NCBI GenBank assembly: GCA_014728115.1
Contig: WJME01000100.1
Coordinates: 1 to 64,000 of the forward strand
Reading direction: 5' to 3'
Length of the DNA stretch: 64,000 bases
Source of the DNA: Candidatus Zhuqueibacterota bacterium
GTDB lineage: Bacteria > Zhuqueibacterota > Zhuqueibacteria > Residuimicrobiales > Oceaniaggregativiventaceae
The notes beneath the pieces are model-generated. The model was not told where the DNA came from. It did no database searches and saw only the letters and a program-made list of their open reading frames with translations. Shown here in pieces: positions 40,114 to 61,814 of the stretch (its first letter is position 1; every line of letters starts with the position of its first letter). The position numbers were made by a program, and so were the translations under genes.

Positions 40114-41073
40114 TTATTGATCTCTGGTGAGATCGACCAGTGATTTACGTGAACCGCTTTCGACGATCAGACGACCGATCAGGCCGAGAAACATAAATTG
40201 TACGAACGTTGCCAAAAAGAGGGCTGCCAATATCATCAGAATATTGAGCTGGGCCCATGAATTTTGCATAACCAGCAATTTGTATAAAATGGCAAACAGG
40301 GAAACAGATCCGGCAACCATAAAGAGTCCGCCAAAGCCAATAAAGAATTCCAGCGGATTTTTCAAATGACGCATGAGCATGCGGATGGTTGTCAAATCCA
40401 TAATGACCCTGAACGTGCGGGAGATGTTGTATTTCGATTGACCATATTTTCTGGCGTGATGTTTAACAGGCAATTCGGCGATACGCGCCCCTTCCATTCG
40501 CATCAGCGCGGGGATAAATCTGTGAAACTCTCCATATAGAGTGATACGTCTCAGCATATCGCCACGAAAGGCTTTGAGCGAGCATCCGGTATCGTGCAGT
40601 TTTACATCCGTTACAGAACAGATCAATCGATTGGCGATTTTGGAAGGAATTTTTCTCATCAACACCTTGTCCTGACGATTTTTTCGCCATCCGCTAACCA
40701 CATCATATCCTTCCTCCAGTTTCGCCAGCAAGAGAGGAATATCAGCGGGATCATTTTGAAGATCGCCGTCCATGGCCACGACGATACGACCTCTGGTGGC
40801 CTCGAATCCGGCTCCCATGGCTGCAGACTGACCGAAATTGGAACGAAACAAAATCACCCGTACATTTTCATCTTCCTGTGCCAGTTGTTTTAAAATGTCG
40901 CGGGTTCCGTCAGTGCTTCCGTCATCAACATAGATGGCTTCGAAAACGATATCTGTTGTGATCAATGACTTGATCAAAGCATCATGCAATCGCAGCACAG
41001 ACTCTTTTTCATTAAAAAACGGTACGACAATAGAAAGATCTATTTCTTTATTTGTTTTCTGCGGAATATCCAT
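40114..41073 (-). CDS. GT2 GtrB/ArnC-type polyprenyl-phosphate sugar synthase
   Basis: 319 residues. VPFFNEKESVLRLHDAL, VDDGSTDGTRDIL, FRSNFGQSAAMGAGF and intact DxD in VAMDGDLQNDPADIP, two C-terminal helices and GLIGRLIVESGSRKSLVD. Paralogous to the degenerate gene downstream (39092). Start overlaps the DUF457 gene by 34 nt. No GT-C gene is immediately adjacent, unlike for three of the other GT2 genes. Confidence 0.9.
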   Translation of the reverse strand: MDIPQKTNKEIDLSIVVPFFNEKESVLRLHDALIKSLITTDIVFEAIYVDDGSTDGTRDILKQLAQEDENVRVILFRSNFGQSAAMGAGFEATRGRIVVAMDGDLQNDPADIPLLLAKLEEGYDVVSGWRKNRQDKVLMRKIPSKIANRLICSVTDVKLHDTGCSLKAFRGDMLRRITLYGEFHRFIPALMRMEGARIAELPVKHHARKYGQSKYNISRTFRVIMDLTTIRMLMRHLKNPLEFFIGFGGLFMVAGSVSLFAILYKLLVMQNSWAQLNILMILAALFLATFVQFMFLGLIGRLIVESGSRKSLVDLTRDQ

Positions 41074-41582
41074 AACGAACCTAACCAGAGGGGTACCAAA
41101 ATGATTATTTCTCTGACAACCGTATTGAGATTATGTGTATTGAACAGACTGATAAAAAATGTGCCGGTATTGGAATCGCGATGCACATCGGCAAACGGTT
41201 GAACGCTTGCGATGAAATATGTGCTACTGAAGGGCCAAAACACAGGTGCTCCATACGGGGCGCTGGTATCGACAGCTAGCAGGTCCATACCAAGATGGGC
41301 GAATCCGGCAAAGCAAGAGTATACAAAAATGTTTTTAAATTTTAAAGAACTTTTATGACTCACGATCAACGCCGCGATCAATGCACAAAATACAATAAAC
41401 AAAAAACTGTGCGTAAAATGGTGATGATAACGGTTAGGGTCACCCACAGCAAAACCGATCAAAAAATCAAAGTCGGGTAATAAGGAAAACAGCAATACAA
41501 TACCCAATAAACCTTTATGGATATGAATCCCGCCCTTTGCCACAATCATTCCTGCGACTGTATGTCCCACGGGTGTAGGCAT
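41040..41582 (-). CDS. DUF457 (YdjM-like) membrane-bound putative metal-dependent hydrolase
   Basis: About 180 residues, four to five hydrophobic segments. Conserved metal-site pattern: MPTPVGHTVAG at the start, LLPDFDFLIG, YHHHFTHSFLF and FAGFAHLGMDLLAVDT. Family biochemistry is unknown in most bacteria. First gene of operon B. ATG at 41582 (MPTPVGH) follows GGGACGGGACGGA and matches the family start; ATG at 41597 has no good site. Confidence 0.85.
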   Translation of the reverse strand: MPTPVGHTVAGMIVAKGGIHIHKGLLGIVLLFSLLPDFDFLIGFAVGDPNRYHHHFTHSFLFIVFCALIAALIVSHKSSLKFKNIFVYSCFAGFAHLGMDLLAVDTSAPYGAPVFWPFSSTYFIASVQPFADVHRDSNTGTFFISLFNTHNLNTVVREIIILVPLWLGSLWIFRRKQIKK

Positions 41583-41597
41583 TCCGTCCCGTCCCAT

Positions 41598-42048
41598 CTG
41601 TTCGTCTTGTTCAAGCTGGCACTATAATCTAGCGGCAAAAACAGACGATTGCTGAAAAAATAATGAAAATGAGACATCTCTGACTCATCATGACGAGTTT
41701 AAGCCACAAAACAGAAATTCCCCTATTACAATTTTTGCAAACAAAAGCACGCATACACAACATGTGTTTGCCAATTATTTGAAAAAAAATTCATTAAATA
41801 GGCACTTATTGAAATTACTTTATTTAGAGGCACATTTGAATGATATGAACCCATTTGAAATCAATTACAGGGATAAAAAGAAAAAAATACGACAATATTA
41901 ATTTGGCATCAGATTTGCAAAAGGCGTCTTGAATGATATACTTGAAAAAAAGAGCATTATTGATTGCTGGGACGGGTAAAATGTTTGTACCGTGTGCAGG
42001 CATGTTCGGGGCGTCTTCCCAGAAACAACCTTAACCGATGGAGGAAGG
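41598..42048. other. Divergent intergenic region between operon B and the plus-strand secreted protein
   Basis: About 450 bp, strongly AT-rich from 41700 to 41900, with no credible gene. On the plus strand it holds a sigma-54-type promoter (41902-41918), three ATTTGAA copies upstream of it (41777, 41834, 41853) and a leader with possible stems. On the minus strand I see no convincing sigma-70 or sigma-54 promoter for operon B, although one must exist here or further in. Confidence 0.7.
41902..41918 (+). promoter_or_regulatory. Sigma-54-type -24/-12 promoter
   Basis: TTGGCATCAGATTTGCA: GG at 41904-41905 and GC at 41916-41917 with exactly 10 bases between them, as required for RpoN. Transcription would start near 41930, about 120 nt before the ATG at 42049. 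The core TGGCATCAnnTTTGC is also found ahead of operon A on the minus strand. Needs an enhancer-binding activator; none is encoded in this window. Confidence 0.72.
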
Positions 42049-45635: not shown

Positions 45636-47393
45636 CTATTGGTTTAATTCTCGCCGATCGGCAACCACTTTGGCAGGTATCCCGCGGGCAATCGAATAAG
45701 GAGGCAAATCTTTGGTAACAATAGAACCGGCCCCGATTACGCATCCGGTCCCGATTTTCACGCCATCGAGAATAGTCACTCCGGCTCCGAGCCAGACATC
45801 GTCCTCGATCACCACTCCGCCTTTGCTGTCATACCCTTGCCGCATAATAGGAATGTCGCAACGGTCAAATTTGTGTTGTGCCCCTCCGACATAACAATTG
45901 GCAGCCAGGAGAACATACTTGCCCAGAACGAGCCGGCTTGTCGTTCCCAGTCTGCAGTTGGCTCCGATATTTGAAAAATCACCGATCTCTATTTGTCCGT
46001 TCCGCGTACTCAGCACTGTGGAACGGCCCAGGAGCACCTGATTTCCCAGCGCAATGGCGCTGTTCTCATCTCCCTGTGCACTGAGCGAGCAATATTCATC
46101 GATGACGCATCGGCTACCGATTTCGATCTTGTGGGCGTGGCGGAGGGTTACACTTTTGCCAAATGCCACTCCTTTGCCGGTGTGTTTGAATAAAAACGGA
46201 TAAAACAGTTGACGCAAAATATAACCGACCATACCTGGCCAGAATGCAAACAGGGATGTCAACAGATCGAACTTTATAAACGTGAACCAGGAGACAGGGC
46301 CACATACGATTTCCCGGTATTTATGAAGAGGGGTTTGTTTGCGGCGCATCACATCTTCAAAACCTGAATAATAATTAACAGTGCCTTTGATATCCTTTTG
46401 CTTTTCCTGTGACTGACGCAATTCAGACCGTACATCGAGTCCCAATCCGGAATAGGCCAATCCTCCGATCACACCGGCAACAAGAGCTTTGAGTCTCATC
46501 AGCAGAGCAACCAAGAGTCCGGTTGCGCCCAACATTCCCAGTCGTTCAAACGTAAAGACATAGGCGCCTTCTGCCAGGCCAATGCCGCCGATAGATATAG
46601 GGATCATAGTGATAATCAGCACAATGGGTGTGATCACCAGGGCGTGTAAAAAAGTGATATCCGCACGGAAGGCGAGTGCGCTGACATACACATTGAGCAC
46701 AGCCACCAGATAAAAAAGAAAAGAATTCGCCATGGCAAACCACAATGTTCCAGGACGCTTTTGCAGTTCGAGCAATGCGGCCTGAAATTTTTCCAGTTTG
46801 AGAAATACCTTGGACACAGGCTTGAAAGAAATTCGCGATTTCAAAGTTTGCAGAATGGCGGGTTTGAGCACCAGAATCAACAAGATAAAATAGCCGATCA
46901 CACTCAGAATCAAGGCGAAAAACAGGCGGAGATCCCAGAATTGGCGTAAAGCCAGTACAAACGCCACCAGCGCCATAAAAAGCAAAGCGGTCAGGCCGGT
47001 GAACCTTTCTGCAAAAACAGAGGAAAAGGCCTGGGCAGGTTTGCCGGTCGATTTACCCAGTGCAAAAGCCCTTACCACATCCCCTCCCACATTGGTCGGC
47101 AATACGGTATTAAAAAAGTATCCGACGATATAAAGCCAGAACAGTTTTGTCAGAGGCACTCTGATCTGATAAGCGCGCAGAATCACCTGCCATTTCCAGG
47201 AACTCACCATAACCAGAACAGGGGTCATGAGAAAAGAAAGCAAGAGGTAAACCCATTGCGCGCGCATTAGCGTATGCCATAAATCGGCGAGGCCGACTTG
47301 CGAAAAAACAATCGCGAGCAAAACCAGGCTGATGATCGCTCTCAGATAAAATGTTTTGCCTCGTTTCCGAGTTGTAGAGATTTCCCGATTCAT
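45636..47393 (-). CDS. Fusion: flippase-like LPG-synthase TM domain plus hexapeptide acyltransferase
   Basis: 585 residues in one intact frame. Residues about 14-315 are an UPF0104/LPG synthase TM domain (NTVLPTNVGGDVVRAF, MIPISIGGIGLAEGA). After a linker, residues about 355-585 are a left-handed beta-helix acyltransferase: a hydrophobic lead-in (about 365-400), hexapeptide repeats from about 405, the catalytic-type His in GGAQHKFDRCDIPI, and the end IARGIPAKVVADR. Members of the second family O-acetylate sugars. The fusion suggests acylation at the membrane of a lipid-linked sugar. Last gene of operon A; start overlaps the upstream stop as ATGA. Confidence 0.88.
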   Translation of the reverse strand: MNREISTTRKRGKTFYLRAIISLVLLAIVFSQVGLADLWHTLMRAQWVYLLLSFLMTPVLVMVSSWKWQVILRAYQIRVPLTKLFWLYIVGYFFNTVLPTNVGGDVVRAFALGKSTGKPAQAFSSVFAERFTGLTALLFMALVAFVLALRQFWDLRLFFALILSVIGYFILLILVLKPAILQTLKSRISFKPVSKVFLKLEKFQAALLELQKRPGTLWFAMANSFLFYLVAVLNVYVSALAFRADITFLHALVITPIVLIITMIPISIGGIGLAEGAYVFTFERLGMLGATGLLVALLMRLKALVAGVIGGLAYSGLGLDVRSELRQSQEKQKDIKGTVNYYSGFEDVMRRKQTPLHKYREIVCGPVSWFTFIKFDLLTSLFAFWPGMVGYILRQLFYPFLFKHTGKGVAFGKSVTLRHAHKIEIGSRCVIDEYCSLSAQGDENSAIALGNQVLLGRSTVLSTRNGQIEIGDFSNIGANCRLGTTSRLVLGKYVLLAANCYVGGAQHKFDRCDIPIMRQGYDSKGGVVIEDDVWLGAGVTILDGVKIGTGCVIGAGSIVTKDLPPYSIARGIPAKVVADRRELNQ

Positions 47394-48571
47394 TCTTCAG
47401 TCAAAAAGGGGTTCAAGTGCTTTGCGCTGTTTTTAGCTTTATCTTTCTCGCGTGCGATCGCCGGGGCGAGCTTTTCTTTTACCTGACCCCGATTTTCAAA
47501 TACCGTGCGAATTTTATGATAAAAACTATCGAGCGATAGATCTCTGAATGCCACCAGATTGTCTTCCATGTCTATTGTCCGCATATAGCCCCGGTTCTTT
47601 GGATAGGTAATAATGCCGACCGGCGGAACTCCCATGGTCGATGACAAGATCAGCGAATGCGTGCGCATTCCGACAAACGTTGCCATTCGTTTCAGCACTG
47701 CGCATATTTCGCCATAGCTGTATTTTTTGTTCGAAACCATGCGCACTCTGTCCATATTTTGTATCTTTGCCAGCACACTGTTTGCAATCCCCATATCCAT
47801 GTGTTGAGTCTCGACAAAAACAACCTCGACATCCAGATCGCGGATCACGCGATCCACGGTTTGCGCGTATAATTCAATCAAATTTTCACGACCAAAAGTA
47901 GAGCCATCCTCACGCACAAATGCATCGACATAATTATTGATATTAAAGCCGATCACCGGGCGGCCAGTTTGAAACAGCCCTTCTTCAGCACACATTTGTT
48001 CGAATACGTTGTCATTTGCAGGAACAGCATTTAATGCACAATCGGCACCTTCGACAATATGATCGTGTTTCAAGTTCTGGTCTTGAAGCAATTCCTGTGA
48101 TTCGCGATCGCGCAAAACAAGCAAGTCAGCACTATCGAGAATGCGCTTGAGGGCATTTCTGCCGGCATCTGTGCGTATCGGACCCAGGCTTGTATTATAG
48201 AGCACCACCGGGATACCTTTGGATTTCGCCCGCGGCAGCACCATTGACAGAGTCCACAAATAGTTGAACAAAGGATTATAGAGTTTGCGGTCAAAGAGGA
48301 TAGCATCAGTCACCAGCACCAGATCGGATCGCATCACCGAAGTCCAGGTCGGAACACCCAAGATTTTCAAACTCATATTCCACGGCATCAGCGGAATAGG
48401 GGTAACCGGATACTCGGCAAATGCTTTGCGAACGAATTGCGAGTTGATCGTGGGCACGGTAAAGGAGACATTATCATACAGATCTGTGATATCCGCCAAC
48501 AGGCCTCCGAGAATAGCGGCATCACCGGCATTACGGCCGGAATTGTTCCCCAAGACATTGATTGTTTTCAT
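47390..48571 (-). CDS. Polysaccharide pyruvyl transferase family protein
   Basis: 393 residues of the WcaK/CsaB-type family. NVLGNNSGRNAGDAAILGGL is the characteristic N-terminal G-rich loop, and ATFVGMRTHSLILSSTMGVPP is the C-terminal signature with the conserved R-x-H. These enzymes add a pyruvate ketal to a sugar from phosphoenolpyruvate, giving a negatively charged polymer. Acceptor sugar unknown. Confidence 0.88.
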   Translation of the reverse strand: MKTINVLGNNSGRNAGDAAILGGLLADITDLYDNVSFTVPTINSQFVRKAFAEYPVTPIPLMPWNMSLKILGVPTWTSVMRSDLVLVTDAILFDRKLYNPLFNYLWTLSMVLPRAKSKGIPVVLYNTSLGPIRTDAGRNALKRILDSADLLVLRDRESQELLQDQNLKHDHIVEGADCALNAVPANDNVFEQMCAEEGLFQTGRPVIGFNINNYVDAFVREDGSTFGRENLIELYAQTVDRVIRDLDVEVVFVETQHMDMGIANSVLAKIQNMDRVRMVSNKKYSYGEICAVLKRMATFVGMRTHSLILSSTMGVPPVGIITYPKNRGYMRTIDMEDNLVAFRDLSLDSFYHKIRTVFENRGQVKEKLAPAIAREKDKAKNSAKHLNPFLTEE

Positions 48572-48604
48572 TTTTAACCGTATAATTTATGATAAGATTG
48601 GCAA

Positions 48605-49594
48605 TTAAAGCAAGTCTTTTTGGCGATACCACTCTGCGGTTCGCCGGATTCCCTCTTTCATCGAGATGTGAGGATTAAAGCCGAGTTCTGTTTGGGCCTT
48701 GGAAATATCGAATGCCCGGTCTTTGACAAAAATATCGACGCGTCGACGAAAAATCGGTGGCTGGATACGCAATGGGATGCACACCTTTTCGCACATCCAG
48801 CCGACACCATACAGCGGCCAAACAGGCAATCGAAGTTTAGGTCTGGGGACAGACAGAACCTCGGCAATGGTTGCCGCAAATTCGGAAAGGGTGGTATATT
48901 CCCTGCCTCCGATGATATAGATTTCTCCGTTGCTTTTTTCGGATTCGGCAGCCAGCCTAAATCCTTCGACGACATCGGTGACAAAAGTCAAATGATAATA
49001 AACGCGACCTGACCCGAACATGATAAATTTTCTATTTTTGACGAGTTTGTACATTTTGAGCATCCTGGTGTCACCGGGGCCATAAATACCGATTGGCCGC
49101 ACAATGGTCACCGGCAGGCCTGTTTCTTTATGAAAGGCCAAGGCTGTTTGTTCACCCTTTAATTTGGTCTGTTGATAAATATCACCGGGATTGAAAGGCG
49201 AGTTCTCATGACCAGGAGGATGTTCCACATGTCCGTGTACGCCTGCTGTGCTGCAGTGCAAAACTTTGGCATTATTCTTCAGGGCAGCTTTTAAGATATT
49301 TTCTGTCCCTTTGACATTCACCTCATAATAGGCCCAATCAGGACGATTTGCTTCGCGATAAAGAGCGGCGATATGATAGATGATATCCACTCCTTCAGCG
49401 GCTTTATACACGCTTTCCGGTGATTCCAGAAAGCCCATGACAATGTCGACATTTTTTTTCTTGAGATCATCTATATTGCTGGTAGGCCGTACAAAAGCCC
49501 GCACAGAATAACCGTGTTCCAAGAGATGATCCACCATGTATCCACCCGTAAACCCAGAAGCTCCGGTCACGAGCGCCGTTTTCTTGTCATTCAT
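48605..49594 (-). CDS. Extended SDR NAD(P)-dependent epimerase/reductase
   Basis: 329 residues. LVTGASGFTGGYMVDHLL is the nucleotide-binding motif, CSTAGVHGH then YQQTKLKGEQ supplies Ser, Tyr and Lys. Similar in layout to the dihydroflavonol-reductase/hopanoid-associated epimerase group, with LRPIGIYGPGD-like text VRPIGIYGPGDTRML. A reductase or epimerase role in nucleotide-sugar synthesis is likely. It could in principle supply the missing ketoreductase of the CDP-sugar block, but it is in the other operon. Confidence 0.82.
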   Translation of the reverse strand: MNDKKTALVTGASGFTGGYMVDHLLEHGYSVRAFVRPTSNIDDLKKKNVDIVMGFLESPESVYKAAEGVDIIYHIAALYREANRPDWAYYEVNVKGTENILKAALKNNAKVLHCSTAGVHGHVEHPPGHENSPFNPGDIYQQTKLKGEQTALAFHKETGLPVTIVRPIGIYGPGDTRMLKMYKLVKNRKFIMFGSGRVYYHLTFVTDVVEGFRLAAESEKSNGEIYIIGGREYTTLSEFAATIAEVLSVPRPKLRLPVWPLYGVGWMCEKVCIPLRIQPPIFRRRVDIFVKDRAFDISKAQTELGFNPHISMKEGIRRTAEWYRQKDLL

Positions 49595-49613
49595 CCTGAC
49601 AATCCCCTGTTTA

Positions 49614-50435
49614 CTATTTTACAGCAATGACAACAGCAGCGTGCCCGAATTGGCGCCTGATTGCTGATGGCAAAATATTATAGACCGGTACAAAGACATG
49701 ATTAAAAAGTCCTGACAAAAATCCTTTTCGCGGAGATTTTGTCGCACGAATATAATCCAAATACACGGTGACATTATTAAAATCTGCAAATAAATTTTTG
49801 AGATCTTTTTTGCTATAAAGTCTTGTTATCGGAGCGTCCTGGTGCGAAAACTCGAAATTGGTTTTACTGAATTTAGAAAGCAAAATTTTCCAGGAATATT
49901 TATAATAGAGCGTGATAGCCGCTTCTCCCCCGGGTTTAAGGACACGAAGCACTTCTGAAATGGCTTTTTGCGTGCTTTCTGTCTGATGTAAAACGCCAAA
50001 GGATGCAACAATGTCAAATGTATTGTCTTCAAAGGGCAAGTGTTCTGCATTGCCGACACGAATATCGGCGGAGACATTATTGTGATGTAAATTCTTTTTT
50101 GCCAGTTCGATGGCCTCTGAAGAGAGATCAACCGCTGAAACATTCATGCCTGCTTTGGCCCAGGCAACGGTTTCCCACCCTGCACCACAGCCTACCTCCA
50201 GGAGATGGCCTTGCGGGTATTTAGCGGCTTGATTTTCGATAAGCCGGTAGCGATGTTCATAATTCGTTCGAATGAAATCGCCTACCTCATCAAAAAACTT
50301 GGAAGACCCAATTTCACGGGGATCACCCTTCCAAAATTGAGTGGTATTGACATTTTCAGTCCAATATTTACGCACCTGATCCAAAGTTTTTTGGTCACTC
50401 CCCTCCCACAGATAAGTTCCAATGCTATCGGGCAT
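49614..50435 (-). CDS. Class I SAM-dependent methyltransferase
   Basis: About 273 residues. LLEVGCGAGWETVAWAKAG is motif I, SAVDLSSEAI motif II, FDIVASFGVLHQTESTQ motif IV, and EVLRVLKPGGEAAITLYY follows. The frame opens as far as 50564, inside the upstream gene, but GAGGA lies 5 nt before the ATG at 50435 (MPDSIGTY), which also removes the overlap. An intermediate ATG at 50486 is possible. Substrate unknown; probably a sugar of the repeat unit. Confidence 0.82.
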   Translation of the reverse strand: MPDSIGTYLWEGSDQKTLDQVRKYWTENVNTTQFWKGDPREIGSSKFFDEVGDFIRTNYEHRYRLIENQAAKYPQGHLLEVGCGAGWETVAWAKAGMNVSAVDLSSEAIELAKKNLHHNNVSADIRVGNAEHLPFEDNTFDIVASFGVLHQTESTQKAISEVLRVLKPGGEAAITLYYKYSWKILLSKFSKTNFEFSHQDAPITRLYSKKDLKNLFADFNNVTVYLDYIRATKSPRKGFLSGLFNHVFVPVYNILPSAIRRQFGHAAVVIAVK

Positions 50436-50472
50436 TTGCTTCCTCATATATTGGTTAATAGCCAAATAATTT

Positions 50473-52140
50473 TCAAGATGTGACATAAATTCGTTCAACT
50501 GATTCGATTTCTTTGTTCCGGCGTTCCTCTGACCAGTTGAGTTTATTTGCCATGAGACCGGCACATTCGTTCAGACACTCTTTGGTCGGGCACCCTCTGG
50601 CCCCCAGTTCGGTCCGCCGCATAATGACATCCGCAAGTGTTTGGGCCATTTCATTCTGTACGGCATAGGTGATCTGGGCTTTTATTGTCGTGGTTCCTGG
50701 AAATGGCAATGCCAAATCAGGATCATTTTCACAATAATGCAAAACGTCCTTATAATGAGTACCATACAGATCGATCAAATGGCGAAGGATATTTTCATCC
50801 ATTTGTTTATAAAATTGAGCTTGTTGAACAAAGTATTCATGGTAATCCGGCAATTCACCGCCCCACACCGGTTGGCTGGATGATCGGCTTTGGGACTCAT
50901 GATTCAGGTATCGAGTGACCAGTGACACAGCCTTTTCAGAAACCCCTCGTGCAGTCGTGTATTTGACAGAAACGATAGAAACCATCCCAGGGATATTGTG
51001 TCGTTCTTTATGATCGATCAGATCAAAGTGCTTTTCCAGTCTTACATCCCCGGTCTGTTCATTGACGCCGGCCATGGGTAAGAGACCTCCATAAGCATGG
51101 ACGACTTGTTTGCGCTGAATATTTGCTTTTGGCATGGCCTGATTGATTTCATTCAGAAACCGCAGCACATCCTGTTCGGTTATTCTGTATTCATCAGGAT
51201 TTTTATCAAACGGTTGATGATCTGTACCGATCAAAGTCATGCCCCGCCAGGGAACCGCAAAAAGCAAACGAGATCCTTTGCTGATCAATGCATCAGAATC
51301 CTTGAATTCATTTTTGCTATAAAACCCAAAAGCCATGTCTTTTCCAAGCGGTTTGTCGATGACCAAGTTCAGGGCTGTGGAAAAGTCCACAGGTTTCCAA
51401 TGACCGTTTAATTTCATAGACGATATAATTTGATTGACCCAGGGACCTGCTGCATTCAGGGTCATTTTGGCATTGATCTCGAATTCTTTTTCCTCCAACA
51501 CATCGCGAACAAGCATTCCTCTGACCCGGCCATCAGACATGACGGGTTTTACGGCCTGAACATAATTGGCCACATCTGCACCTTCTTGAACAGCGGAATG
51601 GATAAAAGAGAGCAACAAGCGTTCAGAATTGACCATTTGGGCATCATACCAAATCGCTCCGCCGTTGAGATCTGATGGATCCAGATAGGGCAAGATGTCG
51701 AGTAAAGATTTTTTTGAAATCACACGGCCGGCAGGGAGTTGTTTGGCGGGGTCTACGCCTTTATTGCGATCCATGCTCATCACATCGTTGATCAATAGAG
51801 CAATCCGCATGACTTCCGGTCCCTTGAGTGTGTGCCCCTTGGTCGGCATCACACATGGCAGAGGTTGCACCAGATGGGGTGCAATGCGAGATAGGGTTCT
51901 CCGTTCACGTATAGACTCTCTCATGCGTACGATATCAGCATGCTGTAAATAGCGCAATCCACCATGGATAATTTTCAGACTATTGAACGAGGTGCCGGAA
52001 GCAAAGTCGTTCTTATCGATGAGGGCGACGCGCAATCCTCGTTGTGCTGCATCCCAGGCAGCTGTGGCTCCATAGATTCCTCCTCCAACAACCAGGAGGT
52101 CATATTCAGTTTCTTTCAGATGATTTGTTTGTCGGCGCAT
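50473..52140 (-). CDS. FAD-dependent glycerol-3-phosphate dehydrogenase/oxidase-like protein
   Basis: 555 residues, the GlpD/GlpO length. VVGGGIYGATAAWDAAQRG is the FAD Rossmann motif; DFASGTSFNSLKIIHGGLRYL is the GlpD signature; the C-terminal helical domain ends with GCPTKECLNECAGLMA. Expected reaction is oxidation of glycerol 3-phosphate to dihydroxyacetone phosphate at the membrane. Its place inside a polysaccharide operon, between AsnB and a methyltransferase, is odd, so it may have another substrate or serve a glycerol-phosphate decoration. Confidence 0.88.
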   Translation of the reverse strand: MRRQTNHLKETEYDLLVVGGGIYGATAAWDAAQRGLRVALIDKNDFASGTSFNSLKIIHGGLRYLQHADIVRMRESIRERRTLSRIAPHLVQPLPCVMPTKGHTLKGPEVMRIALLINDVMSMDRNKGVDPAKQLPAGRVISKKSLLDILPYLDPSDLNGGAIWYDAQMVNSERLLLSFIHSAVQEGADVANYVQAVKPVMSDGRVRGMLVRDVLEEKEFEINAKMTLNAAGPWVNQIISSMKLNGHWKPVDFSTALNLVIDKPLGKDMAFGFYSKNEFKDSDALISKGSRLLFAVPWRGMTLIGTDHQPFDKNPDEYRITEQDVLRFLNEINQAMPKANIQRKQVVHAYGGLLPMAGVNEQTGDVRLEKHFDLIDHKERHNIPGMVSIVSVKYTTARGVSEKAVSLVTRYLNHESQSRSSSQPVWGGELPDYHEYFVQQAQFYKQMDENILRHLIDLYGTHYKDVLHYCENDPDLALPFPGTTTIKAQITYAVQNEMAQTLADVIMRRTELGARGCPTKECLNECAGLMANKLNWSEERRNKEIESVERIYVTS

Positions 52141-52149
52141 TTTGGTTTC

Positions 52150-54033
52150 CTACTGCTTGACATATTGACGATACCATCGTTGAAAAACAATCAAAGCCCA
52201 CAATTTATGGCTATGATTTTCCTGACCGGCCATGTGTTCATTCATCATACGATGGACGGAATTTATGGCAAAGAGCCCGGTCTCTTTGAGACGGTCCGTG
52301 GAAAGGGCATCATTCATCAGGGGATTCAACTCTTCCTTGATCCAGTTTTTGATGGGGATACTGAATCCTTCCTTTCCCCGGGACAATATTTGCTCCGGGA
52401 GTATTCCTTGCATCGCTCTTTTCAGGATATATTTTGTCTTTCCTTTTTGCAGTCGAAGCGAGCTGGGAAGAGAAGCTGCAAACTCTACAAACCGATGATC
52501 CAAGAAAGGAACGCGTGCTTCGAGTGAAGTCGCCATGCTCATCCTGTCCACCTTGACCAGGATATCATCAACCAAATATGTCGTGAGATCAACATATTGT
52601 TGCTGATCCAGGGGATCTGTTGAAGAGACGCGTGCAAATTTTTTCTCGATAAATTCATAGGGACGATAGCCATCGAGTTGCTGCCGGACATGGGATTCAT
52701 ACAGGAAATCTTTTTCAGCCTCTTGTAAAAAAATCATCCAGCGCACATGCTGCAGGTGATCGGGCAATCGCATTCCTTCTACGAACCGCCGGGATCTGTT
52801 GATCAACCCCTTTTTCTTATCCATAGGGGGCAAAGCATTGATTGTTGGCTCGATAAGGGCTTTTCTCATCCATCGAGGTAGCTTTTGATACTTTTTGGCC
52901 ATGGTCTGGGCCACATAAGTATCATAGCCTGCCAGGAGCTCGTCTCCTCCGTCGCCAGAGAGTACGACAGTGACATATTTACGCGCCATTTCTGAAACCA
53001 GAAATGTCGGAAAGATCGAAAAATCACCAAAAGGCTCATCGATAAGAACGAATAATTTTTCTGCCAAATCGTGGATATCGGGTTTTAAAAATTCTTCATA
53101 ATGTTCGGTATTAAAATGCGATGCAATGGCTCTGGCAAAGGGCAACTCATTATAGGTGCGATCATCAAATCCAATAGAAAATGTCTTTACCCGAAAATTG
53201 CTTACCTGACTCATCATGGCAACGATGGAACTCGAATCGAGGCCACCGCTTAAAAAAGCGCCGAGCGGAACTTCACTCATCAGGCGAATCTTGACCGCAT
53301 CGAACAAAAGCTCCCGGAGTTTCTCAACACAGGCTGTTTCGTTCCAATCATTTGCAGCATATTGCACATCCCAATAGCGTTCTACAGTGGTACGGCCGTC
53401 TTTGTATTCCAGGGTGTGGGCAGCCGGCAATTTGTGAATATCTTCCAGTATCGACAAAGAATCAGGAATGTACTCAAATGTTAAAAAAGTATCAAGAGCT
53501 TTGAGATTTATATGCCGAGGGATGTCTCGGATTTGCAAAAGCGATTTCAATTCAGACGCAAAAGCGAGTCGATCTTTGTCCACATAGTAATAAAGCGGTT
53601 TTATTCCGAGCCGATCCCTGGCCAGAAAGAGTGCTTTATTTCGTTCATCCCAGATGGCAAAGGCAAACATACCGTTCAAATGGGTCACGCAATTTTTACC
53701 CCACTCTTCGAATGCATGCAATATGGTTTCAGTATCACTTGAGGTCTTGAAGCGATGACCCTTTTTCTCCAATTCCTCGCGAACGGAGCGATAATTATAA
53801 ATTTCACCGTTGAATACGATCAGACAGTCATTTGTTTCATTGAATATGGGTTGGGCACCGGACTTTAGATCGATAATAGACAGCCGCCGCATACCCAGCG
53901 CGATATTATTACGAACAAATGTTCCCTGATCGTCAGGGCCTCTGTGTACAATAGCTGCGCACATTCGATCCAGATCTGCAGGGTCTGTTCGTCGCTCTGG
54001 ATCCTGATAGACAAAACCGCAAATTCCGCACAT
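52150..54033 (-). CDS. Glutamine-dependent asparagine synthetase-like amidotransferase
   Basis: 627 residues. Begins MCGICGF, so Cys2 is the glutaminase nucleophile after Met removal; RGPDDQG and FNGEIYNY complete the glutaminase site. The synthetase domain has AFLSGGLDSSSIVAMM as PP-loop. In polysaccharide loci such AsnB homologues are thought to amidate uronic acids; the UDP-glucuronate 4-epimerase gene at 56766 makes a uronamide plausible. Plain asparagine synthesis cannot be excluded. Confidence 0.9.
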   Translation of the reverse strand: MCGICGFVYQDPERRTDPADLDRMCAAIVHRGPDDQGTFVRNNIALGMRRLSIIDLKSGAQPIFNETNDCLIVFNGEIYNYRSVREELEKKGHRFKTSSDTETILHAFEEWGKNCVTHLNGMFAFAIWDERNKALFLARDRLGIKPLYYYVDKDRLAFASELKSLLQIRDIPRHINLKALDTFLTFEYIPDSLSILEDIHKLPAAHTLEYKDGRTTVERYWDVQYAANDWNETACVEKLRELLFDAVKIRLMSEVPLGAFLSGGLDSSSIVAMMSQVSNFRVKTFSIGFDDRTYNELPFARAIASHFNTEHYEEFLKPDIHDLAEKLFVLIDEPFGDFSIFPTFLVSEMARKYVTVVLSGDGGDELLAGYDTYVAQTMAKKYQKLPRWMRKALIEPTINALPPMDKKKGLINRSRRFVEGMRLPDHLQHVRWMIFLQEAEKDFLYESHVRQQLDGYRPYEFIEKKFARVSSTDPLDQQQYVDLTTYLVDDILVKVDRMSMATSLEARVPFLDHRFVEFAASLPSSLRLQKGKTKYILKRAMQGILPEQILSRGKEGFSIPIKNWIKEELNPLMNDALSTDRLKETGLFAINSVHRMMNEHMAGQENHSHKLWALIVFQRWYRQYVKQ

Positions 54034-54035
54034 AC

Positions 54036-55274
54036 TCAGTTATTCCTCACGGCTTGCTGTACAACCCATTTTGTCTTGTTCAGATAATCCTCATAACTGT
54101 ATTGCTTTTCTGCCAACCGGGCAGCTTTTCTGGCCAGCTCCTGTGCATATTCAGGTTCTTCGAGAACTCTTAAAATACCTCTGGCAAAAGCCTGGGGAGT
54201 GATTGCCGTGAGTTCTGAAACACTGGGATTCAAAATCTGTGTATGAGTCACATGATCAGTTGCAACAATGGGCTTTTGTGAACGCAGATAAGAATATATC
54301 TTCAAAGGGGAATTATTACCTTTGAGCCGTGGCGACACCAGAACATCGGCCAGATCGATCAGAGAGGGAATTTCCTGGGGTTGAACAAATCCAGTAAAGA
54401 TAAATTGATTGGACACGTTCAAGTCTTTTGCCTTTTTCTGGTATGATTTTACCTGTTCTTCACTCCCCCCGGCAATGAGAAAGCGCAACGTTTGCTTTCT
54501 AGAGTCCGGGAGATGGGTCGCTGCCTCGAGGAGCAGTTCTATACCCTGGTAGGTTTCCAACGTGCCATAATAGAGAACAATCTGTTTATGTTCTATATCG
54601 AATCTCTTGACGAGTGCCTTTTGATTGGCTTGTTGCGGTGGGAAGACCAGGCTATTGTCAGCCACATTTTCAATCAGAATACTCTTTGTATCCGGAAACC
54701 GCTTTTCGACAAACGCTTGTAACTCGGGGCAGATGGTAATGACCGCGCTGGCAGACAGGATAGAACGTTCTTCCAATCGGTCAAAAATCCCGGTGATAAA
54801 CCGGGATTTGGTGTATTTGAAATTACTCAGTTGTTGAGGAAGGGAAGAATGCATATCATAGAGATGGGGGACATAAAATTTTTCAGACAGATTCACTCCC
54901 CAAAAAGCCGCTTCCTCATGAGTGTGCAGCAAATCATACTTGTTCTGTTCAAGCAATTGGATGCTCTTTCTCCATAACCCGAGATCGAGCCATATTTTCG
55001 TTTTCGAGGGGCCGATTTTGACTTTCTTCACCCCCGGGATACCCGCAGAGCGATGAATTTTCAAGCCCGGGATTTCGATATCCTGACCAATGGGATAGGT
55101 AGCCAGGTCGATTCTATGCCCCAAGAGGCTGAGAGCTTTGATACGATGCAGCACGCTAAACGGGGTCCCTCGCGGGGAGAACCATGGCTGTGGAGCAATC
55201 ATAAGAATGCGTAATGGGCGTTCCATTTGCAAATCACTCGAAATATTTTTCAGTTTTCCATTATTCTGCGCCAT
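54036..55274 (-). CDS. GT4 family glycosyltransferase
   Basis: About 412 residues from the ATG at 55274 (MAQNN, GGTGG upstream); ATG at 55226 (MERPLRI) is an alternative nearer the fold. PQPWFSPRGTPFSVLHRI is the typical opening of this GT4 branch. Donor domain: VLYYGTLETYQGIELLL and SPLKIYSYLRSQKPIVAT, where Ser replaces the usual first glutamate. Overlaps the sugar transferase gene by 14 nt, so it may add the second sugar of the repeat. Confidence 0.86.
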   Translation of the reverse strand: MAQNNGKLKNISSDLQMERPLRILMIAPQPWFSPRGTPFSVLHRIKALSLLGHRIDLATYPIGQDIEIPGLKIHRSAGIPGVKKVKIGPSKTKIWLDLGLWRKSIQLLEQNKYDLLHTHEEAAFWGVNLSEKFYVPHLYDMHSSLPQQLSNFKYTKSRFITGIFDRLEERSILSASAVITICPELQAFVEKRFPDTKSILIENVADNSLVFPPQQANQKALVKRFDIEHKQIVLYYGTLETYQGIELLLEAATHLPDSRKQTLRFLIAGGSEEQVKSYQKKAKDLNVSNQFIFTGFVQPQEIPSLIDLADVLVSPRLKGNNSPLKIYSYLRSQKPIVATDHVTHTQILNPSVSELTAITPQAFARGILRVLEEPEYAQELARKAARLAEKQYSYEDYLNKTKWVVQQAVRNN

Positions 55275-56718
55275 AACCCACCAAGACAACAATAAATGTT
55301 TTAAAAAAGATACGAACATCTAAAAGCAATGACCATCTATCGATATAATCCAAATCCATCTTCATCCATTCATCGAACCCGATCTTATTACGGCCGCTGA
55401 CCTGCCATATACAGGTGATTCCCGGTTTCAGGCTTAATCTCCGGCGTTGCCAAATCTGATAATTTTCCACTTCTGAAGGCAGCGGAGGTCTTGGGCCGAC
55501 AATACTCATATCGCCCTTTAGTACATTGATAAACTGAGGGAGCTCATCTATACTCGTTTTGCGCAAAAAGTATCCGATCGGCGTAATACGCGGATCGGCT
55601 TTCATTTTAAATACCGGCCCGTCCATTTCATTTTTGGTCAGCAATTCGGTTTTACGCGCTTCGGCATCAACCACCATAGAACGGAATTTAAACAAAGTAA
55701 ACTTGCGTCCTTTTAAACCCGCGCGGGTTTGTTTGAAAAAAATGGGTCCCTTTGAGGTGACCTTGACCAAAATAGCGACAATAAGCATCAAGGGAGAGAA
55801 AAAAATCAATGCAGTCAGTGATACGACGATATCCATCAAGCGTTTGAGAAAAAGCTGCCACTCTTTGGCATGAAACGTTTCGAATTCCAAAAGCGGAAAC
55901 CCATTAAAATCGGTTTGCCGGGCCCGTGCGATATGTAAATTATACAAATCGAGAGACAGAGAAGTACTGATCCCGACTTCTTCACATGCCAGTATAGCAT
56001 CTTCAATACGGTGCAACCACATTCTCGGAACCACGAAAATAACCCGGTCCACAACCAGATGGTTGATCAGGAATGGGATGTCCTGAATCCTGCCGATGAC
56101 GCGATGGCCATCCACCTGTTTACCATACATATCATGATCATCATCCACCAACCCAACAATTGCGAGCCCCCAATCCTTATGCAGGGTAACCGCTCGAATA
56201 AATTCCCTGGCTCGCTTTCCTGTACCCACGATGAGCAAATTTTCCTGATTATATCCCTTAGAGTGGACCACATTGAGCATATAGAGCAATACCCGTTTTT
56301 CCAGCAAGAGCATCAAATAGGCGGTAATGGTATATACCGAAAAGAAGAGACGGCTGGCAAGCTCGAACTTGAATAAAAAGATAAAGCTACCACATGCAAT
56401 AGATGCCCAAATGCTGGAGACGAATATAATCCAGGCCTGCTTTCTAAATGACCGAAGCCGAAATCCGCGATAAACATTGTTTACGGAAAGCACCGAAATC
56501 CAGATAATGGGAAAACCAATAAACATCATCCAGTATTTTGAAGCAAAATAGATAAAGCCGGACAGGGTCGGGCCAATGGCATAAGCTTTAACGCTCAGCG
56601 AAGTCATGGCACGAATAAATTCATCAAAAAAGTAGGCAACTGGAAAGGCCAAGGCTAGAGCGATAAAATCAAAGCCCTTCATGATTTTGCCCAAAAAGCG
56701 TTCTCTGTCAGATAACAT
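55261..56718 (-). CDS. Polyprenyl glycosylphosphotransferase (initiating sugar-1-phosphate transferase)
   Basis: 485 residues, WbaP/WcaJ type. Five N-terminal helices, a CoA-binding-like domain (LLIVGTGKRAREFI, about 165), then the catalytic C-terminus with KRLMDIVVSLTALIFF, GPIFFKQTRAGLKGRKF, LFKFRSMV, DELPQFINVLKGDMS and VGPRPPLPSE. Transfers sugar 1-phosphate to undecaprenyl phosphate and so starts the repeat unit. Only initiating transferase in the window. Confidence 0.95.
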   Translation of the reverse strand: MLSDRERFLGKIMKGFDFIALALAFPVAYFFDEFIRAMTSLSVKAYAIGPTLSGFIYFASKYWMMFIGFPIIWISVLSVNNVYRGFRLRSFRKQAWIIFVSSIWASIACGSFIFLFKFELASRLFFSVYTITAYLMLLLEKRVLLYMLNVVHSKGYNQENLLIVGTGKRAREFIRAVTLHKDWGLAIVGLVDDDHDMYGKQVDGHRVIGRIQDIPFLINHLVVDRVIFVVPRMWLHRIEDAILACEEVGISTSLSLDLYNLHIARARQTDFNGFPLLEFETFHAKEWQLFLKRLMDIVVSLTALIFFSPLMLIVAILVKVTSKGPIFFKQTRAGLKGRKFTLFKFRSMVVDAEARKTELLTKNEMDGPVFKMKADPRITPIGYFLRKTSIDELPQFINVLKGDMSIVGPRPPLPSEVENYQIWQRRRLSLKPGITCIWQVSGRNKIGFDEWMKMDLDYIDRWSLLLDVRIFFKTFIVVLVGYGAE

Positions 56719-56765
56719 ATCACATCCGTTGAAATTGAACCATCCTGGTGCTAATCGAGCCGAAT

Positions 56766-57737
56766 CTATTTTTTATCTGGTACTAGATGGTGCACATTTG
56801 CGTAAAACCACTCTACAAACTTTTCAATACCAGCTTTGACAAGAGTTTGCGGATCATAATTTAAATCTTTTCGTGCCAATGTTATATCTGCATATGTAAT
56901 GGGGACATCACCGGGTTGCTCTGGTTGAAAATCGAGTTTTGCCTTTTTGCCCATGGCTTTTTGCAACAATTCGATCAGGTCCAACAGCTCGATGGTTGAT
57001 GATTCACCTAAATTATAAATGTGATATCCATTGCAGCATTCAACGGAAGCCAGGATGCCCTGAATGATATCGTCGATATAGGTATAATCTCGTCGACTGT
57101 TTCCTTTGCCAAACACCGGGATAGGTTGATTTCGATAAATCATTTGTGCAAACTTGTGAATCGCCATATCCGGTCTTTGCCGCGGCCCATAGACGGTAAA
57201 AAAGCGAAGTCCGGTCGCTTGAATGCCATATAGATGATGATAGGTATGGGTGATCAATTCAGTCGCTTTTTTCGTCGCAGCATAGGGAGATATGGGATGA
57301 TCCACAAAATCATTTTCGGAAAACGGTACTTTTTTATTGGCCCCATAGACCGATGATGAGGAGGCATAGATAAATTTTCCCACCTGATATTTACGACAGC
57401 ACTCGAGCAGGTTCATGGTTCCCTGAATATTCACTTGAGCGTATAGCCCGGGTTGTTGAATAGAGGGTCGAACACCAGCCCTGGCAGCAAGATGGATCAC
57501 GGCATCATAGCTGTTTTGCTGAAACAAGGTTTCCAACAGCGTGGTATCCAGTATATCCCCTTTATAGAGTGTAAAGCCAGTATGACCTTCAGATTCTTTG
57601 ATATTGTTATATTTAATCGCTGGTGAATAGTAATCGTTAAAATCATCTAAACAGTGCACCACATTACCACGGGCTAATAAATGTTCTACAAGGTGGGAAC
57701 CAATAAAGCCAGCGCCCCCTGTAACCAGCAATTTCAT
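56766..57737 (-). CDS. UDP-glucuronate 4-epimerase-like SDR
   Basis: 323 residues. VTGGAGFIGSHLVEHLL binds NAD; LAARAGVRPSI is the segment typical of UDP-glucuronate epimerases; SSSSVYGANKKVPF and YAATKKATE hold Ser, Tyr and Lys; FTVYGPRQRPDMA is also typical. Expected to interconvert UDP-GlcA and UDP-GalA for an acidic repeat unit. Lies 11 nt after the kinase gene. Confidence 0.88.
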   Translation of the reverse strand: MKLLVTGGAGFIGSHLVEHLLARGNVVHCLDDFNDYYSPAIKYNNIKESEGHTGFTLYKGDILDTTLLETLFQQNSYDAVIHLAARAGVRPSIQQPGLYAQVNIQGTMNLLECCRKYQVGKFIYASSSSVYGANKKVPFSENDFVDHPISPYAATKKATELITHTYHHLYGIQATGLRFFTVYGPRQRPDMAIHKFAQMIYRNQPIPVFGKGNSRRDYTYIDDIIQGILASVECCNGYHIYNLGESSTIELLDLIELLQKAMGKKAKLDFQPEQPGDVPITYADITLARKDLNYDPQTLVKAGIEKFVEWFYANVHHLVPDKK

Positions 57738-57748
57738 TCTTGTTCTCC

Positions 57749-60088
57749 TTAATATTGATAGTAACTGTATTGATCTTGAACCAGAGTTGAATCCGTGCCA
57801 TTGACAACGACACCCACCAGATTTACAGGCACCTGCCGAAAGACTTTAATTTTTTCTTCGGCCTGATGTTTGTTGGTCATTCCAGATCTGGCGACGATGG
57901 CGACTGCATCGACCTGAGTGCCGAGGACCACAGCATCAGTTGCTGCTTCTAACGGCGGAGTGTCAAAGATGATAAAATCGAATTTGCGGCGTGCCTCTTC
58001 TAAAAACCGTTTCATCTGAAAAGAGCCCAAAAGCTCCGATGGATTGGGCAGCATTTGACCGCAACTGATCACCGAAAGATTTGGAATATGGGTAGTCTGT
58101 ACCACCGATGAAAGAGTTGCATTGCCGCTGAGGTAATTGGTAAAACCGGGACTCTTTTTGATGCCAAAGGTATTGTGAAGCACTCCCCTGCGAAGATCAG
58201 CATCCACAAGCAGAGTATTCGAGCGTTGTTGTCCCATGATGATCGCCAAATTACTTGCCGTAAACGATTTGCCTTCTTCCGGTCCGACGCTGGTCAATAC
58301 CAGTGTTTGAATGGCTTTGCTTTTCTTAGAAAACAACAATTGCGTCCGCAACGCCCGATAAGACTCTCCTATGGGTGTGGGAGAATAATCATGTGTGACC
58401 AACTGCCGGTCGATCTGCTTTACTTTTTCATAATCGTGATACTCGGGAATATCTTTAAAGTCCACAATAGGAATCGTGCCGATAATATCTAATTCGAATA
58501 TTTTTTGCATTTCGTCCAGGGTACGGATTTTTCGATCTGTGATATCGATTAACACGGATATTGCGACTCCCAAAAAGAATCCCAGTGCCGCCCCCATGAT
58601 GATTTTGCCGCTCTTATCCGCATTGATGGCGGCACGTGGTGGCAGAGCCGGATCCTGAATCACAATATTACCGCTGGCCACCGATTCTTCTACAGAGCGG
58701 GTATCGATTTCAGCCAAAACCTGATTATAGATCTGTTCGGCAATATCCAGACGTTTTTGGAGCTCGTTGAGTTTTGATTCTTCGCTGGGAAAGGTTCGTA
58801 ATTTTGATTCCAGGCGTTGTTTTTCATCTTTGAGATCGCTCTCCTGGCGGGTCAATGTATTGAGGTGTTTTGAAGAGAACGAGACGATCTCATCCTGAGT
58901 ATCTTCGATTTTGGTGGCCAACTCCGCGACGGGTTCATAATCTTCGGAATAGCGATCCAAAAGATCGTCATATTGGTTGAGTTGATCTTTTAGAGTTTCG
59001 CGCAGAATCGCAAGGTTGGGCTCATTGGCCATATCTTCAAAGTTGGCTAATTGCGTTACGATATATCTGCGGAATTGAACGGGATTTGTCCCCTCTGGTT
59101 TTTCATCCAGTTTTTCCAACAAAGTTTTAAGATTTGTGCGTTTTCTGGGCAACAACTCTAGCTGGCGTTCTACAGCCAAAAGTCGTTCCGTGACCGATTC
59201 TTTTTCAAATTCCAGTGAGAGCGGGTACCGGGTATTGAATAGCCTCATCTCTTCCTCTGCGCGCTCCAGGTTGCTCTTTGCCGATGCAAGGCGTCGTTGC
59301 AAATTTTTCATATGACTGGACTGATCGCGAGACTTTAGTTGCAACGCCTCTTCGACATAGGCTCTGGCGATCCGATTCAGTTCATCTGCCAGAGTTGTCG
59401 GATCTGTTCCCTGCAGCGTCAAACGCATGGTCGAGCCGGTACTGCTGATATCGACCTGGACTTTGGATATTTGCCACAGCGCTTTGGAAAAATCGCGAAT
59501 ACGAAATAAAATTTCAGCATCTTTGGCCACGAACTGTGGATTGAGCTGAAAGGAAAAGCCATTTACGGTGCGATAATCTTCGATCACATCCCAGACCAGC
59601 GCACTATCCAACAGCGTTGTTTGCCCGTCGCCGCGGGTCGTGTACAATCGATAGGCCCCGTCTTCACTCGTGGTCAACCTGTATTCGCCAACGACAGGAT
59701 CCTTGTCCGTAGAAAAATCCTGAAAAATATCTTCGTGATGCGTCCCCACCGTGCTTTGATCGATCTTGAGTGCCAGTCCCAGGCGAGCTGCGACCTGTTC
59801 CTTGAAATTTCGGGTACGCATTTCGACCTGGCGCTCGCGGCTCAAAATTTGCCCCTCGGAATCATCAAATTCGACGGTCTTTAAAAACGCCTGGGTTTGA
59901 TAAATAGGGATCTCTTGTTTCGTGCGATAATAAAAAAACAACGCAAATACAACAGTTAAAATTCCCACGAGCCAAATACGTTTTAACAAGCCACGAAGGT
60001 ACTTGCCAAAATCGAACTGAGACTCTGGCTCTTCATCAAAAGCCGGAGGAGGGGGAGGTGCCTGTGTATAGTTGAGTTCTTCCATCAT
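57749..60088 (-). CDS. Wzc-like polysaccharide co-polymerase / tyrosine autokinase
   Basis: 779 residues. Proline run at 11-15, first helix about 38-53, a long periplasmic Wzz-type domain with coiled coils (about 250-460), second helix about 496-515, then a BY-kinase: Walker A GPEEGKSFT (K607), A' LLVDADLRR (626-634), B FIIFDTPP (705-712). The tail ends in a tyrosine cluster (Y774, Y776, Y777, Y779). Controls chain length and export together with the Wza-like protein encoded one base upstream. Confidence 0.95.
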   Translation of the reverse strand: MMEELNYTQAPPPPPAFDEEPESQFDFGKYLRGLLKRIWLVGILTVVFALFFYYRTKQEIPIYQTQAFLKTVEFDDSEGQILSRERQVEMRTRNFKEQVAARLGLALKIDQSTVGTHHEDIFQDFSTDKDPVVGEYRLTTSEDGAYRLYTTRGDGQTTLLDSALVWDVIEDYRTVNGFSFQLNPQFVAKDAEILFRIRDFSKALWQISKVQVDISSTGSTMRLTLQGTDPTTLADELNRIARAYVEEALQLKSRDQSSHMKNLQRRLASAKSNLERAEEEMRLFNTRYPLSLEFEKESVTERLLAVERQLELLPRKRTNLKTLLEKLDEKPEGTNPVQFRRYIVTQLANFEDMANEPNLAILRETLKDQLNQYDDLLDRYSEDYEPVAELATKIEDTQDEIVSFSSKHLNTLTRQESDLKDEKQRLESKLRTFPSEESKLNELQKRLDIAEQIYNQVLAEIDTRSVEESVASGNIVIQDPALPPRAAINADKSGKIIMGAALGFFLGVAISVLIDITDRKIRTLDEMQKIFELDIIGTIPIVDFKDIPEYHDYEKVKQIDRQLVTHDYSPTPIGESYRALRTQLLFSKKSKAIQTLVLTSVGPEEGKSFTASNLAIIMGQQRSNTLLVDADLRRGVLHNTFGIKKSPGFTNYLSGNATLSSVVQTTHIPNLSVISCGQMLPNPSELLGSFQMKRFLEEARRKFDFIIFDTPPLEAATDAVVLGTQVDAVAIVARSGMTNKHQAEEKIKVFRQVPVNLVGVVVNGTDSTLVQDQYSYYQY

Positions 60089-60748
60089 TTAGTTTCTACG
60101 ATAATTTAGCATGGTAAAATAGAAAATGAGCATCGACATCCCAAACTGGACATATCGCATCACCGTATCAAACGTCAGGCGATTTACTCGCGGAGCGAGG
60201 ACTTCATCACCGGATTGCAAGCCCAATTCATAGAGAGAACTGGCATCATAAAACGCCTCATAAAAATCGCTGTAAATAATTTCTTCCTGTCGCATAATAT
60301 ATATTTCTTCCAGGCGTGAAAGACCGGTTACACCGCCGACTTGTTCCAGCATTTCCCACGCAGACATATTGAGATCAAAGCGGTACAGGCCCGGTTTTCC
60401 AAAGCCCCCGCGAAACGACAGACGAATCAGCGGTACGACAATGACGCGCGGATCTTTGGCAAAGGGTTTGAATTTTTCCTGCAGCAATTTAGAGATCTCT
60501 TCTGCATTCAGATTATTGATCATCACGCGTCCGATCGAGGTCAGATGGATCTGTCCGAAACCGTCAACGATAAATTCCTGGTCATGAAACGTAGAGATAA
60601 AGCGGTCATTTTCGACCTGGTACAATCCATCATATACATACAGTCGGACAGCGTCTCCGGGGCCGACACGAATACCTTGTTGAGCTGGTATTTGTGCAAA
60701 TGTACTCGTTAGCAGTAAACAAACAAGAGCAATCCAGCGTAGCATCAT
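60089..60748 (-). CDS. Short Wza-like polysaccharide export protein (SLBB)
   Basis: 219 residues from the ATG at 60748, with AGGAG 7 nt ahead; the longer frame from 60802 is unlikely. Signal peptide ending near TFA-QIPA. Poly_export motif VGPGDAVRLYVYDG, then INVDGFGQIHLTSIGRV-like VDGFGQIHL, an SLBB-type segment with GGFGKPGLYRFD, and a late hydrophobic stretch (FGMSMLIFYFTML). No lipobox cysteine. Much shorter than E. coli Wza (about 380), so another outer-membrane part may be needed. Confidence 0.88.
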   Translation of the reverse strand: MMLRWIALVCLLLTSTFAQIPAQQGIRVGPGDAVRLYVYDGLYQVENDRFISTFHDQEFIVDGFGQIHLTSIGRVMINNLNAEEISKLLQEKFKPFAKDPRVIVVPLIRLSFRGGFGKPGLYRFDLNMSAWEMLEQVGGVTGLSRLEEIYIMRQEEIIYSDFYEAFYDASSLYELGLQSGDEVLAPRVNRLTFDTVMRYVQFGMSMLIFYFTMLNYRRN

Positions 60749-60758
60749 CACATTTCTC

Positions 60759-61454: not shown

Positions 61455-61512
61455 GTCTTCCAATCAATCGAGTACAATATGGATTTCACCGCGATTCATA
61501 CATACGATCCAG

Positions 61513-61550: not shown

Positions 61551-61581
61551 GATCAATAGGGGAGACCAGACGAAATCAAGA

Positions 61582-61596
61582 GCAAAGTTGATGCCA
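61582..61596 (-). promoter_or_regulatory. Sigma-54-type -24/-12 promoter of operon A
   Basis: On the minus strand TGGCATCAACTTTGC: GG at 61595-61594 and GC at 61583-61582 with exactly 10 bases between. Transcription should start near 61570, about 115 nt before the STAS gene. Core identical to the promoter at 41902-41918 in 13 of 15 positions. The -24 box overlaps a 12-bp palindrome. Confidence 0.75.
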
Positions 61597-61720: not shown

Positions 61721-61746
61721 AAAAAACCGTCCATCGATGAACGGTT
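61721..61746 (-). terminator. Rho-independent terminator of glgA
   Basis: On the minus strand AACCGTTCAT / ATGGACGGTT (one G-T pair) form a 10-bp stem with a tiny CG centre (61746-61725), followed directly by a T tract (to 61721). It lies about 70 nt after the glgA stop. Confidence 0.8.
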
Positions 61747-61814
61747 GTTAAACCTTGAAACAGATCACGCAAAAAGACAGAACATCAGTTCATCGGTGAA
61801 CGGCAAAAAAATGT

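Follow-up and report, generated by a model that had tools for sequence, protein, structure and literature searches.

A predicted sigma-54 promoter of a secreted apiosidase-like enzyme gene, next to a polysaccharide operon that probably has a different activator

The -24/-12 box in front of a secreted apiosidase-like glycoside hydrolase gene was analyzed in a 64,000-nucleotide stretch of DNA (the window) from a Candidatus Zhuqueibacterota bacterium. On comparative sequence grounds, the box is a genuine sigma-54 promoter of a single-gene unit. The assignment was based on the -24/-12 box itself, its intergenic site, the presence of rpoN and sigma-54 activators in the genome, its retention in relatives, and its linkage to a conserved polysaccharide locus. 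The best explanation of the whole, which is probably correct, is that the enzyme gene and the polysaccharide operon (operon A) share the sigma factor and have different activators. The features are listed in Table 1.

Table 1. Positions of the features discussed (window coordinates unless a genome or contig is given).
Feature	Position	Strand	Remarks
Secreted apiosidase-like protein (PF13204), 1181 aa	42049..45594	+	Signal peptide, Big_5, DUF5060, fn3 domains
Sigma-54 -24/-12 promoter of enzyme gene	41903..41919	+	GG 41905-41906, GC 41917-41918
YdjM-like membrane protein, heads divergent glycosyltransferase run	41040..41597	-	
Sigma-54 -24/-12 promoter of operon A	61581..61596	-	TGGCAYNRACTTTGCW upstream of same operon in relatives
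STAS-domain protein, first operon A gene	60759..61463	-	Likely ATG 61454
Rest of operon A	45636..60802	-	Profile matches
Operon A content, part 1			Poly_export, Wzc-like kinase, epimerases, EPS_sugtrans, glycosyltransferase
Operon A content, part 2			XrtA-type amidotransferase homolog, glycerol-3-phosphate dehydrogenase homolog, methyltransferase
Operon A content, part 3			Pyruvyl transferase, flippase-like/hexapeptide protein
Candidate activator-binding site (TGT-N11-ACA), TGTTTCAAGGTTTAACA	61746..61762	-	166 bases upstream of operon A -24 box
L056, L061, L065	C124:57011, C146:32189, C161:12637	-	
Activator and adjoining long gene (histidine-kinase-like by context)	G001:C46:156800-160332; G010:C80:116332-119954		

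The enzyme matched PF13204 (Apiosidase), which we take to be the family formerly named DUF4038, with a profile score of 135.8 bits against a curated cut-off of 26.5. Solved structures (4n0r and 8t9w) were found among its relatives. E601 and E680 were invariant in 11 aligned relatives and may form the catalytic pair. A signal peptide was found at the start of the product. The labels of close relatives by enzyme protein included candidate division KSB1 and Calditrichota, and one record was Actinomycetota. The enzyme gene is convergent with operon A, which runs from 61.5 kb down to 45636. For the YdjM-like gene on its other side, no match to TGGC[AC]N..TTGC[AT] was found. Within the glycosyltransferase run, a Golvesin C-terminal domain with a GHL15 hydrolase match was observed at 8005-10098 of the window (- strand).

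The sequence TTGGCATCAGATTTGCA is located at 41902-41918 on the + strand. The box agrees with the sigma-54 pattern TGGCAY-N5-TTGCW / GG-N10-GC, having 10 bases between GG and GC, the canonical -24/-12 spacing. It is intergenic, directly 5' of the gene, with 145 bases from its TGG to the ATG at 42049, and it is kept in orthologs. When all window positions on both strands were ranked by consensus score, the enzyme and operon A boxes came 1st and 2nd. The 15-mers at 41904-41918 (+), TGGCATCAGATTTGC, and 61582-61596 (-), TGGCATCAACTTTGC, shared TGGCATCANNTTTGC with 0 mismatches; the first-pass annotation had claimed that the sequence is shared with the operon A promoter on the opposite strand, and the match is exact. 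An RNA element was sought in the leader and none was found (fold z -0.24). A chance occurrence of the box, with a sigma-70 promoter (for example TTTGCA-N17-TATACT, 41914-41942) serving the gene instead, is very improbable. A sigma-70-like 9/12 match does overlap the box, but such matches were at chance level (2 found vs 1.7 in shuffles), and the element kept in relatives is the -24/-12 box.

Conservation of the box was investigated at 15 of 39 enzyme loci; the locus without the N-terminal region (L110) and the remote relatives of at most 31% identity (L116-L138) were left out. The strict pattern TGGCN7TTGC occurred within 280 bases upstream at 6 of the 15 other loci in addition to the window's own. 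With the last base relaxed, the box was present at 11 of 15, or 12/16 with the window's own, and at 0/15 loci with the control patterns (reversed pattern, opposite strand). It was missing at L103, L105, L106, and L112. The start of L114 is uncertain because its alignment begins only at residue 361. Shuffled upstream sequences gave a graded picture: the box score beat all 300 shuffles at L010, L011, L012, L013, and L015, had p values of 0.003 to 0.03 at L018-L021, and had no support at L014, L016, and L017 (p 0.2 to 0.6). The p value was 0.09 at L023 and 0.04-0.05 at the partial-match loci L024 and L025, and no convincing box was found at L022, also a partial match. Upstream of the L012 enzyme gene, an inverted repeat (ACAAGAACA...TGTTCTTGT) abuts the -24 element and is possibly an operator.

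The gene order of operon A was kept in G001, G002, G011, and G008, and parts of it lay on two contigs in G004. The enzyme gene was placed as in the window in G002, was turned to the strand of the operon with its own box retained in G011 and G008, and in G004 shared the strand of the operon or of adjoining genes, with the box kept. In G001 it was on a separate contig, again with the box, and the 20 kb examined there held no other homolog of window genes. The pattern TGGC[AC]NNNNNNTTGC[AT] had exactly 2 matches in a 37 kb stretch of G002, at the operon and enzyme genes. Second enzyme copies outside the locus in G011 (C338) and G008 (C59) had no box directly upstream; these copies adjoin another set of weak polysaccharide-gene homologs. 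The earlier proposal of a sigma-54 promoter for the secreted DUF4038 gene was thus borne out by a box that is conserved in relatives, several of which have the gene within the polysaccharide locus.

The operon A core was also conserved. TGGCAYNRACTTTGCW was present in 18 of 40 genomes. Of the 22 genomes in the taxonomic order to which the window belongs, 16 had a copy immediately 5' of the STAS gene, and one of these, G003, had a second copy elsewhere. The box was found at 26 of 30 STAS loci examined, including L079, L086, and L091, the last with A in place of the first T. The loci without it were L090 and L093, from one family, and the more distant homologs L098 and L099. Conservation of the core upstream of the same operon in relatives upholds the sigma-54 promoter previously claimed for operon A.

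A second element was found upstream of the operon promoters. It first surfaced in cross-genome alignments and was then confirmed against shuffles and by an unbiased scan for dyads. TGT-N11-ACA was present within 260 bases upstream in 23/23 operon promoters, with a dyad z of 18.8 against a shuffled-set maximum of 6.2. The motif counts covered 23 of the 30 STAS loci at first, and L079, L086, and L091 were added later. Tandem copies at both L086 and L091 bring the total to 25/25 operon promoters with enough upstream DNA; the upstream DNA of L079 ends at the contig end, and this locus stands outside the count. The motif spans several families of the class. Its inner consensus was TGTTTCAnnnTGAAACA, and it lay about 100 to 223 bases from the box. 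Two copies were found in 20/23 promoters, the listed copies being 18, 20, or 21 bases apart, and a single copy in L070, L078, and L094. A linked dyad, ACA-N4-TGT, mirrors the tandem copies 21 bases apart. Operon A in the window genome has one clear copy only, and the motif is tandem in most relatives. Word counts and strict inverted-repeat counts in the upstream regions gave nothing clearly above shuffles; they missed the site because it is gapped.

A position-weight matrix was built from 42 sites, the operon A site included. With this matrix, no other position of the window scored as high as the operon A site, and among the genome sigma-54 sites scanned only operon A scored strongly (15.4; next 10.8). 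Three other sigma-54 sites of the genome, L056, L061, and L065, had weaker TGT-N11-ACA-like sites in pairs with a spacing of 19-21 bases. By names assigned by eye, L056 precedes a lytic transglycosylase-like protein and L061 a polysaccharide-export-like protein. These sites may mark genuine further members of the regulon of operon A or may be chance.

The enzyme promoters gave a different result. TGT[TA]TC.{8}ACA matched 22/23 operon promoters vs 0/12 enzyme promoters. The summed motif score of the enzyme promoters equalled the shuffled mean, and nothing above shuffles emerged when 11 of them were scanned for dyads. For the enzyme gene, no upstream activator-binding site was detectable by motif match or dyad scan. 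The matrix gave single weak matches of 11-12 bits at the L012 and L013 enzyme promoters, scores that overlap those of the weakest operon sites, yet near the 99% quantile of random window stretches (11.6). Since the enzyme gene is without the TGT-N11-ACA site, it most likely has another activator. An absent motif is weaker evidence than a present one, and the same activator could act through a degenerate or distant site at the enzyme promoters.

The first-pass annotation had taken the extra bases shared by the two promoters as the mark of a common regulon. By that account, one small regulon with one activator would make the polymer and a polymer-acting enzyme together. This account agrees with the conservation of both sigma-54 promoters and with their joint placement in a single syntenic locus of G000, G002, G008, and G011; in G011 and G008, moreover, the boxed enzyme copy is the one in the polysaccharide locus. 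The extra core bases, however, were not conserved in the enzyme orthologs: position 7 was C in 1/11 enzyme promoters and position 8 was A in 5/11, whereas the operon promoters had C or T at position 7 in 21/23, A at position 8 in 18/23, and T at position 11 in 21/23. Such agreement is also common among unrelated sigma-54 sites: of the 990 pairs formed by the 45 intergenic sites of the genome, 14 agreed at positions 6, 7, 8, and 11 as the two promoters do. Nor was a common upstream element apparent, as operon and enzyme upstream regions from 9 genomes were no more alike within a genome (mean 9.5) than across genomes (9.5). With the operon motif missing from the enzyme promoters as well, a common regulon did not hold up either from the extra bases or at the activator level, and the single-activator account is unlikely.

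The shared 15-mer was also scanned across the source genome, a 6.96 Mb draft in 338 contigs in which the window belongs to contig C27. The exact 15-mer had only two matches, the two promoters. With at most one mismatch there were 21 matches; 3 of the 19 inexact ones fitted the sigma-54 consensus, and 13 of the 16 that did not were inside genes. Within the window, 22 matches with at most three mismatches were found vs 30.6 expected. Because the 15-mer is not over-represented in the window and its off-consensus matches in the genome are mostly intragenic, it is no regulon signature in itself. The real signal within the 15-mer is the sigma-54 consensus.

The genome contains rpoN once. The sigma-54 activator domain has 43 matches in it, of which about 31 approach full length. 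TGGCAYNNNNNTTGCW occurred 57 times, and the reversed control pattern 6 times. Judged by codon usage, 45 of the 57 sites were outside coding ORFs, and 37 of these 45 had a coding ORF start within about 450 bases downstream. Exported-looking products were encoded by 24/37 genes downstream of sigma-54 sites vs 33/205 other genes in the stretches examined (Fisher p 4e-9); signal peptides were called with a simple, crude home-made rule, the same for both groups. The best picture is that many genes for envelope and secreted proteins of this bacterium have sigma-54 as a common platform.

In the mechanism proposed, RNA polymerase with sigma-54 would be held at the closed enzyme promoter, awaiting an NtrC-family enhancer-binding ATPase. 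The ATPase would open the promoter, and transcription of the enzyme gene would start near 41930. Operon A would use the same sigma factor with its own activator at the conserved TGT-N11-ACA site, mostly in tandem pairs. The link between the polymer and the enzyme that possibly trims or releases it would then be their location and a common sigma factor rather than a dedicated regulon of both, and the extra base match between the promoters would be a coincidence.

The arrangement was compared with published systems. PMC1569441 describes PEP-CTERM genes of Proteobacteria near exopolysaccharide loci, under sigma-54 control and with a 17-base upstream motif. That system, with PrsK-PrsR, resembles the present one in having sigma-54 boxes at single-gene secreted-protein units, exopolysaccharide loci, and a 17-base upstream motif that is sometimes repeated. 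A difference is that the motif here lies on the polysaccharide operon and is absent from the secreted enzyme gene. A regulon of the PEP-CTERM/PrsK-PrsR type is nonetheless extremely improbable here. The box and the sometimes repeated motif do adjoin exopolysaccharide genes, and operon proteins match XrtA-system models, all below the model cut-offs. However, exosortase EpsH had 0 matches in the genome, the best PrsK (TIGR02916) score was 110 bits against a cut-off of 300, no PEP-CTERM tail was evident by eye at the enzyme C-terminus, and the motif is farther from the box than in the PEP-CTERM system (about 149 bases vs an average of 62.8 in PMC1569441). Since there is no exosortase match and no PrsK above the cut-off, the genome is taken not to have that system.

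PMC9850573 reports an experimentally RpoN-dependent pepA in Aquincola tertiaricarbonis with a mapped box TGGCAC / CTGCTT. This gene too has sigma-54 control and an exported product with a link to exopolysaccharide; the product is a PEP-CTERM protein, not a glycoside hydrolase, PrsK-PrsR is implicated, and the host is a Rubrivivax/Leptothrix relative, not KSB1. The survey PMC3162934 proposes sigma-54 as a controller of the bacterial exterior. Sigma-54 sites before envelope, polysaccharide, and secreted-protein genes are common to that survey and this genome; the present analysis adds a KSB1-type genome, the signal-peptide count, and a candidate activator motif.

Among open-licence papers, no literature was found on KSB1 with sigma-54, or joining sigma-54, the STAS domain, polysaccharide, and enhancer. 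Of 8 such papers listed, all contained the N10 string TGT-N10-ACA and none an N11 string. The upstream site of NifA is TGT-N10-ACA. Both sites are inverted TGT...ACA elements upstream of a -24/-12 promoter; the present one differs by its N11 spacing, an inner TTC/GAA preference, and a usually tandem arrangement, and it precedes polysaccharide rather than nitrogenase genes.

A candidate gene for the activator was sought by linkage in G001, G002, G010, G011, and G016, with nothing firm. G001 and G010 have an activator gene at a distance of 31 kb upstream of the operon, in a block whose gene content is otherwise conserved. The activator and its adjoining long gene have the same insertion point in this 30 kb block in both genomes. 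In the window genome, the activator is absent at that place, and the closest relative of it elsewhere shows 45% identity.

To our knowledge, KSB1-type lineages have few or no cultures, so their regulatory wiring is readable only by comparison. The analysis yields a promoter of a secreted enzyme, tested by comparison, and a catalogue of 57 sigma-54 sites for one genome. For the conserved polysaccharide operon it yields a precise candidate activator motif with 25 examples. It extends the published theme of sigma-54 before secreted-protein genes to an uncultured phylum. It also gives a caution: a longer-than-consensus match of two sigma-54 boxes does not alone mean shared control. There is an even chance that the findings reflect a sigma-54 switch that governs surface polysaccharide throughout the class, in uncultured KSB1/Calditrichota-like bacteria. 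In such a switch, a dedicated activator would bind TGT-N11-ACA, usually as tandem 17-base pairs 18-21 bases apart, and would fire the STAS-led operon from an almost invariant core, TGGCAYYAACTTTGCW, and the enzyme would be gated through a separate activator. With a separate activator for the enzyme, synthesis of the polymer and its trimming or release could be timed apart.
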